37,901 bases of DNA from Verrucomicrobiales bacterium (GTDB lineage: Bacteria > Verrucomicrobiota > Verrucomicrobiia > Verrucomicrobiales > DEV007), in contig JABSSQ010000148.1 in the NCBI GenBank assembly GCA_013213905.1, positions 1 to 37,901 on the forward strand, in the 5' to 3' direction. Below the pieces are notes generated by a model. That model saw nothing but the letters and a program-made list of their open reading frames with translations. It did no database searches and was not told the DNA's origin. Positions 4,343-33,669 of this stretch are shown piece by piece (positions within the stretch are counted from its first letter, which is position 1; each line of letters begins with the position of its first letter). The translations under genes were made by a program, and so were the position numbers.

Positions 4343-4437
4343 GCGGTGCGCCTGAAAAGGAAACAGGGTTAGGTGCTGGGCCAAACCCTGTCTAAAGTTT
4401 TGGCGGGACTGGAGAAGTCCTGCGGTTTAGGCCCGTT

Positions 4438-29858: not shown

Positions 29859-31774
<1,916 letters not shown>

Positions 31775-31877
31775 GCAAAAAGCCGAGGGCTTTTGCCAGT
31801 GATTAGTCATTTGTTTTTGAAATGAGGAGCGCGGGTTTCCCGCGCTCTTTTTTGTAGCGGAAGATGCCAATTTTCCG
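31775..31877 (+). repeat. composite intergenic repeat, copy A (hairpin + heptads + hairpin/terminator + imperfect hairpin)
   Basis: gcaaaaagccgagggcttttgccagtgattagtcatt...gagcgcgggtttcccgcgctctttttt-gtagcggaagatgccaattttccgg; near-identical modules recur at 32601-32717. Confidence 0.85.
31827..31853 (+). terminator. leuB intrinsic terminator (embedded in repeat copy A)
   Basis: gagcgcggg ttt cccgcgctc then tttttt; perfect 9-bp stem. Confidence 0.85.
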
Positions 31878-31916
31878 GGCTCCGGGGATTGCTGATCTTG
31901 ACAAAAGAGACTTGAT

Positions 31917-31931
31917 GTAAGAAAATCTTAC
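31917..31931 (+). promoter_or_regulatory. putative operator of the vapBC pair
   Basis: Perfect palindrome gtaaga aaa tcttac ending 3 nt before the antitoxin ATG; TTGACA at 31898-31903 upstream. Confidence 0.6.
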
Positions 31932-31933
31932 TC

Positions 31934-32176
31934 ATGACAACGGTCCTTTCACAAAAGGGGCAGGTCGTGATTCCGAGTGCGGTTCGGGAGCGGCTTTCTC
32001 TTGAAGCAGGAGACGATATGGAGATTCTTATCGAGGATGAGGACACCATCGTTTTGCGGCGCATTTCGCGCCGACCGAATGAAGGTCTGGTGGATCACCT
32101 CGTGACCTGTCCTGAGCCTTTTGACATCCCTGAGCGCTCGACCGAAGAAGCACGGGAGGTTGACCTGGCTCTATGA
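31934..32176 (+). CDS. vapB: AbrB/MazE/SpoVT-fold antitoxin (VapB-type)
   Basis: MTTVLSQKGQVVIPSAVRERLSLEAGDDMEILIEDEDTIVLRRI; overlaps the following PIN toxin by 4 bp (ATGA). Confidence 0.88.
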   Translation: MTTVLSQKGQVVIPSAVRERLSLEAGDDMEILIEDEDTIVLRRISRRPNEGLVDHLVTCPEPFDIPERSTEEAREVDLAL

Positions 32177-32586
32177 GCTTGCTGGTCGATACCAATATCT
32201 TCAGCGAGCTGGTCAAGCCGACGCCGGATTCCGGTGTTATTGAGTGGGCACGTGAGCATCAGGCGGATTTTCATGTCTCCACTATCACGATTGGAGAATT
32301 GAAATACGGCATCGCTGTCCTTGAGGAGGGAAAGCGGAAAGAAGCGCTTCAGAAGTGGCTCAAAGAGACGTGCCGGATCATGGAGGGCCGCACCCTGTCA
32401 TTCAATCGTTCTGTTGCCTACGTGTGGGCAGATCTCCGGGCGTCGATGAAGCGGAGTGGTCACCGTATGCCTCTGGCCGACAGTTTGATTGCTGCCACGG
32501 CCAAGCGTCATCAGTTGGCGATTGCGACTCGCAACGTCGACGATTTCAACGGGACGGGTATACGAGTGGTGAACCCCTTTGATTGA
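32173..32586 (+). CDS. vapC: PIN-domain ribonuclease toxin, VapC family
   Basis: MSLLVDTNIFSELVKPTPDSGVIEWA; TITIGELKYGI; RMPLADSLIAATAKRHQLAIATRNVDDF. Confidence 0.9.
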   Translation: MSLLVDTNIFSELVKPTPDSGVIEWAREHQADFHVSTITIGELKYGIAVLEEGKRKEALQKWLKETCRIMEGRTLSFNRSVAYVWADLRASMKRSGHRMPLADSLIAATAKRHQLAIATRNVDDFNGTGIRVVNPFD

Positions 32587-32600
32587 GTGGGCGGGCGTAG

Positions 32601-32755
32601 GCAAAAGCCGAAGGCTTTTGCCAGTGATTGGTCATTAGTGGTTAGAGATTAGTTTCGAATTCAGGAGTGCGGGTTTCCCGCGCTCTTTTTTTGTAGCGGA
32701 AGATGCCAATCTTCCGGCGGTCGCGGAGGACCGCGACCCTCCACGCCTTCGGCGT
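32601..32755 (+). repeat. composite intergenic repeat, copy B, with five consecutive hairpins
   Basis: Hairpins 32601-32621, 32665-32685, 32697-32716, 32719-32738 and 32743-32755; the first ~117 nt match copy A, with an insertion of extra heptads. Confidence 0.85.
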
Positions 32756-32883
32756 CAGCCAACCAAAGGCGAATCGCTAAAAACGAATCACTGACGAGGC
32801 GAAGGCTCGGAATCAGGGTTGACTCTGCGACCTAACCCTGTTGAGTGCAGCACTGAACCCTGTTGGGTTTACCTCTCGACTGC

Positions 32884-33669
32884 ATGACTTACGCCGACAC
32901 GCTCCGCCAACGAATCGCCGAGACTGGCAGCGCCCTTTGTGTGGGGCTGGATCCACGACCGGACCGTCATGAATCGGTCGAGGCGATTGAGTCTTTTTGT
33001 GAGCAGGTGATCGCAGAGACGGCGGAGTTTGCGGCCGTTTTCAAGCCGAACATCGCTTACTTCGAAGCTCTCGGTGTGGACGGTTACGCAATGATCGAAC
33101 GCCTCATCGGTAAGATGAAGGCGACGGGTGTTCCCATCGTGCTCGACGCCAAGCGTGGAGACATCGGCACGACCCAGGATCATTATGCGAAGGGCTATTT
33201 CGAAAACTGGGACGTCGATGCGGTGACCCTGAGTCCTTACATGGGCTTCGATTCTGTTGAGCCTTTTCTCAAATACCCGGGCAAGGGCGTTTACCTGCTC
33301 GGGGTGACTTCCAACGCGGGGGCCGCCGACCTCGAAACGCACGACCTCGCCAGTGGGCGCAAGGTGTTCGAGCTGGTTGGTGATATGACGACCCGGGCAG
33401 CTGACACCGCAGCGGGTGAGGGGAGTATCGGACTCGTCCTCGGCCTGACCAATGCCTCCGGCGAAGTCTTGGCCCGTATGCCCGACGTGCCGCTCCTGAT
33501 TCCCGGACTCGGCGCGCAGGGAGGAGACCTCGAAGCGCTTCGGGGTGCCGACCGGAGTGCGCCTTCTGTGATTAATGTTTCCCGCGGCATCCTCTATGCC
33601 GACTCAGATCAATCCTTCAGCCAACTAGCCAAAGATTATGCGGACCGAATTGCCAGCGTCACAGGATGA
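32884..33669 (+). CDS. pyrF: orotidine-5'-phosphate decarboxylase
   Basis: ALCVGLDPRPDRH; FKPNIAYFEALGVDG; IVLDAKRGDIGTTQDHYAKGYFE; GLGAQGGD; INVSRGILYA. Confidence 0.93.
   Translation: MTYADTLRQRIAETGSALCVGLDPRPDRHESVEAIESFCEQVIAETAEFAAVFKPNIAYFEALGVDGYAMIERLIGKMKATGVPIVLDAKRGDIGTTQDHYAKGYFENWDVDAVTLSPYMGFDSVEPFLKYPGKGVYLLGVTSNAGAADLETHDLASGRKVFELVGDMTTRAADTAAGEGSIGLVLGLTNASGEVLARMPDVPLLIPGLGAQGGDLEALRGADRSAPSVINVSRGILYADSDQSFSQLAKDYADRIASVTG

Follow-up and report, generated by a model that had tools for sequence, protein, structure and literature searches.

How a vapBC toxin-antitoxin module came to lie between two copies of a composite repeat, directly behind leuB, is the question raised by this locus of a Verrucomicrobiales bacterium. 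The entry into chromosomes of small toxin-antitoxin modules that carry no recombinase of their own is poorly understood. The stretch of DNA that was analyzed (here called the window; 37,901 nucleotides) is contig C55 of a 4.96-Mb MAG, which consists of 535 contigs, is 91% complete, and was searched as a whole. A preliminary description of the window had claimed that the two copies, A and B, share one order of modules and have vapBC between them, and both BLAST and the coordinates bear out the modules, their order, and their position. The block holding A, vapBC, B, and a tail starts directly 3' of the leuB stop codon, within the following setting.

30671 to 31774, plus strand: leuB (3-isopropylmalate dehydrogenase; PF00180, E value 4e-140), with its stop codon at 31772-31774; left border of the insertion
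31775 to 32794, no strand: lineage-specific insertion, about 1.02 kb long, which separates leuB from the ancestral leuB-pyrF spacer; its right end is uncertain (about 32756-32795)
32887 to 33669, plus strand: pyrF (orotidine 5'-phosphate decarboxylase; PF00215, E value 6e-29), the right neighbor

Copies A and B are direct repeats of a four-module block

Copy A extends from 31775 to 31878 and copy B from 32600 to 32717, and the two are 94% identical across two blocks (BLAST within the window, 34 bp at 94% with an E value of 1e-9 and 55 bp at 94.5% with an E value of 2e-17); no third comparable block was found by BLAST elsewhere in the window. Copy A begins directly at the leuB stop codon, and copy B begins 13 nucleotides 3' of the vapC stop codon. 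Each runs from a short palindrome through TTAGTGA-type heptads and a strong intrinsic terminator to GTAGCGGAAGATGCCAATCTTCCG. The palindrome module (AAAAGCC-GAR-GGCTTTT) is itself a terminator-like hairpin, and the last module is composed of GTAG followed by CGGAAGAT-GCCA-ATCTTCCG, an 8-bp hairpin that is perfect in B and has one G-T pair in A. Because the heptad arrays differ in length, the middle parts of A and B differ by about 13 bp. Only B goes on into a second, minus-strand REP (32718-32742) and a small hairpin (32743-32755), both of which A lacks. When folded, the copies were far more stable than their dinucleotide shuffles (z = -3.7 for A and -6.1 for B). Rfam returned only subthreshold L20-leader matches (E values, 0.14 and 0.42), which were taken as chance. 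The individual modules are as follows.

31775 to 31796, plus strand: palindrome of copy A, GCAAAAAGCCGAGGGCTTTTGC, a weak terminator-like hairpin directly 3' of the leuB stop codon
31796 to 31811, plus strand: heptad remnant of copy A, CCAGTGATTAGTCATT (sequence comparison)
31827 to 31853, plus strand: predicted intrinsic terminator of copy A, GAGCGCGGGTTTCCCGCGCTC plus T6 (fold)
31854 to 31877, plus strand: REP of copy A, GTAGCGGAAGATGCCAATTTTCCG, intergenic (A/B BLAST; genome-wide pattern search)
32600 to 32622, plus strand: palindrome of copy B, GGCAAAAGCCGAAGGCTTTTGCC (sequence; predicted fold)
32621 to 32655, plus strand: heptad array of copy B, CCAGTGATTGGTCATTAGTGGTTAGAGATTAG (sequence comparison)
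32663 to 32692, plus strand: predicted intrinsic terminator of copy B, 11 pairs and T7 (fold; the only terminator found here by the consensus scan)
32693 to 32716, plus strand: REP of copy B, GTAGCGGAAGATGCCAATCTTCCG (A/B BLAST; genome-wide search; stem covariation)
32718 to 32742, minus strand: second, GGAG-headed REP, GGAGGGTCGCGGTCCTCCGCGACCG, of a dispersed family that also flanks the RAYT gene on contig C359
32743 to 32755, minus strand: small hairpin, ACGCCGAAGGCGT, found ahead of GGAG in many members of the second REP family

The enclosed vapBC pair looks autonomous

Between the two copies, a predicted PIN-domain toxin gene directly follows the gene for an AbrB/MazE-type antitoxin (PF01850 and PF04014). 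Neither VapB nor VapC was matched by PADLOC, and no near donor was found among 387 genomes of the order, in which no VapC exceeded 57% identity.

31898 to 31926, plus strand: predicted vapB promoter, TTGACA-17-GAAAAT (consensus scan)
31917 to 31931, plus strand: predicted VapB operator, GTAAGAAAATCTTAC, a perfect palindrome with a 3-nucleotide center (recurrence in related loci)
31934 to 32176, plus strand: vapB, AbrB/MazE-type antitoxin of 80 amino acids (PF04014, E value 7e-11; TIGR01439)
32173 to 32586, plus strand: vapC, PIN-domain toxin of 137 amino acids (PF01850, E value 1e-13), overlapping vapB by 4 nucleotides

Taken alone, the promoter prediction is weak, since one was found versus 0.5 expected in shuffles. 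In 28 of 34 related vapBC loci, the window counted, whose VapC proteins are mostly 50 to 57% identical, a conserved palindrome, GTARGATTTTCYTAC, was present 16 to 18 nucleotides 5' of the vapB start codon. Its recurrence at the same place makes a role as the VapB operator of this vapBC family very likely. With a predicted promoter, operator, and terminator of its own, the vapBC unit thus looks autonomous, judging from these sequence signals.

Related genomes have an empty leuB-pyrF site

Among the same-genus genomes, 13 carry leuB and pyrF on one locus, and in these the leuB-pyrF spacer is 20 to 72 bp long, apart from one of 202 bp that holds an unrelated hairpin (G002); in the window it measures 1,115 bp. 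VapBC, A, and B were absent from this site in all 13 of these comparable genomes, and homology of the window to the spacer of the nearest relative (G014) resumes near 32795. About 1.02 kb was therefore inserted directly 3' of the leuB stop codon in this lineage. Repeated AACCCTGTTGA and CAGGGTTGACT motifs lie 5' of pyrF (32812-32885); they also occur in the spacers of relatives and near position 4350 of the window.

The preliminary description had expected an empty site with one copy of the repeat, and this expectation failed, in that the 13 relatives hold zero copies. It had also named two patterns that would speak against its reading, namely, only two copies genome-wide with all relatives arranged alike, or both copies in relatives without vapBC; the relatives, rather, were without A, B, and vapBC altogether. 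Since none of the 13 has any copy, A and B came with, or after, the split from them. In the nearest relative, LeuB is 95% identical and the fourfold sites of leuB are 62% identical; compared with the latter value, the roughly 94% identity of A and B makes their duplication look younger than the split from that relative, unless the copies are kept alike, as they could be by gene conversion or by selection holding the hairpins. No relative in an intermediate state, with one copy or with both but without vapBC, was found, and for this reason the order of the steps is not fixed.

A misjoin of the vapBC segment between two repeat copies during assembly was also considered, given that the MAG is in 535 contigs and that repeats lie at the junctions. 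Such an artifact is highly improbable; the sequences on the leuB side and on the pyrF side keep the gene order of the relatives, and ordinary reads should span A and B because the blocks are just 34 and 55 bp long and differ at several bases.

On balance, we lean toward the reading that duplication or recombination at a gene end with terminator and REP brought vapBC in, after the split from the nearest sequenced relative. A self-contained vapBC cassette would have been inserted into the short leuB-pyrF spacer, right at the leuB stop codon. Copies A and B would be two copies of a single gene-3'-end block, made up of tandem terminators parted by heptads and then a RAYT-type REP hairpin, and they would stem from local duplication or recombination, either while vapBC was being inserted or beside it, with one event presumably yielding both. 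Copy A would then terminate leuB, and B would terminate vapBC, presumably keeping leuB read-through from reaching pyrF. The REPs themselves would be nonautonomous repeats that are spread by RAYT enzymes.

A gene-end cassette, not one mobile element

All four modules, this REP included, stand together only at A and B in the whole genome. Of the dispersal proposed for the element in the preliminary description, the search of the whole genome bore out that of the REP module alone. At the 3' end of a secDF-like gene (contig C154), the palindrome, heptads, and the same terminator are followed by a different GTAG hairpin, and a gene on contig C43 ends in heptads and terminator only. A third gene, secDF, thus shows this module order at its end, which makes the composite a cassette of gene ends and not one mobile element, and terminator plus heptads is, as far as these sequences indicate, a gene-end style of this genome. 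The earlier view of the element as a mobile or RAYT-like repeat carrying a terminator consequently stands for its REP module, the whole being a stack of terminator gene end, heptads, and REP.

Two further observations concern the single modules. TTAGTGA-type heptad arrays are dispersed in intergenic DNA of contigs C366, C171, C154, and C43 of this genome. The palindrome gave little sign of being a repeat family by itself; in a strict search of the genome (23 matches, versus 13 for the reversed control), it did hardly better than the control beyond A and B.

The recurrence of the heptad-and-terminator style at secDF and on C43, together with the frequent position of REPs just behind genes, would also fit independent accretion, in which leuB and vapC each gained a generic terminator-heptad 3' end, REPs landed there separately, and the bracket is a coincidence. 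However, A and B have a terminator loop, REP variant, and spacing in common at 94% identity, no other gene end of the genome comes as close, and both are missing from all 13 comparable relatives. We consider independent accretion rather unlikely, and continue to prefer duplication or recombination of one gene end.

Two REP families and their RAYT genes are present

The last module of A and B is a REP element of the GTAG class. At both 31854 and 32693, GTAG is followed by an 8-bp stem with a 4-nucleotide loop, as expected of REPs, which have GT(A/G)G at the foot of a palindrome of about 20 to 40 nucleotides. A search of the genome at up to 2 mismatches gave 29 matches, whereas the reversed pattern gave 0. 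Sister genomes hold up to 45 copies in both orientations, with arrays of roughly 100 bp. By a simple open reading frame test, 22 of 24 copies checked in this genome were intergenic, and many copies form inverted doublets with a distance of about 11 bp. Both freely searched stem pairs were Watson-Crick in 73 of 80 distinct copies (shuffles: mean, 18; maximum, 30). Relatives with the same repeat are MAGs of Verrucomicrobiales, Verrucomicrobiaceae, or Akkermansiaceae, plus one stray Planctomycetaceae record. The GGAG-headed repeat behind B (GGAGGGTCGCGGTCCTCCGCGACCG) belongs to a second dispersed family, in which the stems vary yet stay paired and which often follows ACGCCGAAGGCGT.

RAYT genes were first detected with PF01797, which has eight matches in this genome, and those genes had no GTAGCGGAA flanks; a flanked class came to light in relatives with a profile based on other RAYTs. 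The profile search also identified the gene on contig C359, a REP-associated tyrosine transposase (NCBIfam NF047646, above cutoff) that is flanked by GGAG hairpins of the family to which the REP behind B belongs. Another RAYT gene, on contig C228, lies between one GGAG and one GTAG hairpin. The suggestion that a dispersed, structured REP/RAYT-like family is involved, and that a REP-associated transposase should be sought, was therefore well founded, with 29 copies against none in the control and RAYT genes in both the genome and the genus.

The distinct class found in relatives (alignment A2) has strong matches in 12 of 34 genomes of the genus. In most inspected cases, GTAG hairpins lie at its flanks, and in two genomes (G006 and G040) these are of the GTAGCGGAA family. 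A profile search of this genome, which is 91% complete, gave no strong match to an A2-class RAYT. The GTAGCGGAA family may thus be orphaned here, unless its RAYT is encoded in the missing part. In one relative (L290; G006:C64), a RAYT gene is accompanied by an array of alternating GTAGCGGAA REPs at steps of about 115 bp, likely a cognate REPtron. For this uncultured genus of Verrucomicrobiales, two REP families are thereby documented along with their RAYTs, one class of which is linked to the GTAGCGGAA family.

With vapBC between two direct GTAG REPs, with RAYTs in the genome, and with a second vapBC (G240) also between direct copies of a GTAG REP, vapBC might be regarded as a passenger between two REPs, a composite-transposon-like unit moved by a REP transposase. 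The insertion boundaries do not support RAYT-driven transport: the insert starts at the palindrome rather than at a REP and runs past the REP of B to about 32794, so that the boundaries lie well outside the REPs, and the palindrome and heptads are also within the insert. Moreover, RAYT genes here lie between inverted, not direct, REPs, the cognate RAYT of the GTAGCGGAA family was not found in this genome, and such hairpins are near only 2 of 43 vapC loci. No target-site duplication was recognized by eye in the junction alignment. RAYT-mediated movement is accordingly improbable, and of the earlier proposal that vapBC was inserted at, or moved between, dispersed repeats, the insertion is upheld by the empty leuB-pyrF site of relatives. 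We retain duplication or recombination at the gene end as the preferred reading.

Direct repeats bracket some other vapBC loci

Among vapBC loci of this family with enough flanking DNA, 5 of the 30 others are bracketed by direct repeats, compared with 2 of 374 control windows (both in one locus). With the window included, the DNA before vapB and after vapC has direct repeats in 6 of 31 loci and inverted repeats in none. The five loci other than the window give a Fisher P value of 3e-5 against controls that were random places rather than matched intergenic sites. These five (in G015, G025, G074, G240, and G266) have unrelated repeats, each different from the others. In G240 (L328, G240:C8, 1092-1971), vapBC lies between two 62-nucleotide direct repeats that are 90% identical and 818 bp apart; they begin with a GTAG REP, and the second GTAG supplies the stop codon of vapC. 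In G266 (L331, G266:C5), a fragment from the 3' end of the gene that precedes vapBC is found again behind vapC, and the locus in G025 resembles what is left of a tandem vapBC copy. A general enrichment of perfect GTAG or GGAG hairpins at vapC loci was rejected (2/43).

It is conceivable, if rather doubtful, that whenever a vapBC module of this Verrucomicrobiota family enters a chromosome, the adjoining DNA is duplicated (about 24 to 100 bp of a gene 3' end, terminator, or REP). Each insertion would then bear a direct-repeat scar of its own; REPs would be the site in some cases, and RAYTs might assist. Because the control was unmatched for intergenic position and the repeats differ, a mechanism common to the bracketed loci is put forward as a hypothesis. 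In the literature searched, which covered few subscription journals, no precedent was found for toxin-antitoxin modules bracketed by REPs or flank duplications. Clean empty sites, a direct-repeat scar, and five further bracketed loci in the order make the entry of vapBC testable by comparison of closely related strains.

Comparison with known systems

REPs, RAYTs, and VapBC are known kinds of elements; what deserves further attention is that flank duplications recur where vapBC was inserted. The pair resembles type II VapBC modules in its domains, overlapping genes, operator-like palindrome near the start, and patchy distribution, but differs from them in being enclosed by a directly repeated gene-end block and in that the nearest VapC, among 387 genomes of the order, reaches only 57% identity. 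Intergenic heptamer repeats of the TAACTGA type have been described for Beggiatoaceae, Cyanobacteria, and Bacteroidetes (PMC4679880). Like these, the heptads here are short tandem 7-mers in intergenic DNA, whereas they are of the TTAGTGA type and lie in gene 3' ends before terminators, TAACTGA being found before start codons.

GTAG repeats have been reported in Verrucomicrobia, in O. terrae (PMC3733652), and RAYT genes flanked by inverted REPs are likewise known (PMC2817692). Among REP/RAYT systems (TnpA-REP, REPtron), the closest form is the Sm REP of Stenotrophomonas maltophilia, a perfect 8-bp palindrome that is cut by its RAYT (PMC8266576, PMC2817692). The REPs described here differ in their 4-nucleotide loop (3 in Sm REP), in a modest copy number of about 30, in the presence of a second, GGAG-headed family, and in that no cognate GTAGCGGAA RAYT was found in this genome. 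They agree with REP/RAYT systems in the GTAG head, the perfect 8-bp stem with a short loop, the dispersed intergenic placement, the inverted doublets and arrays, the covarying stems, and the RAYT genes of the same genus that lie between inverted copies.
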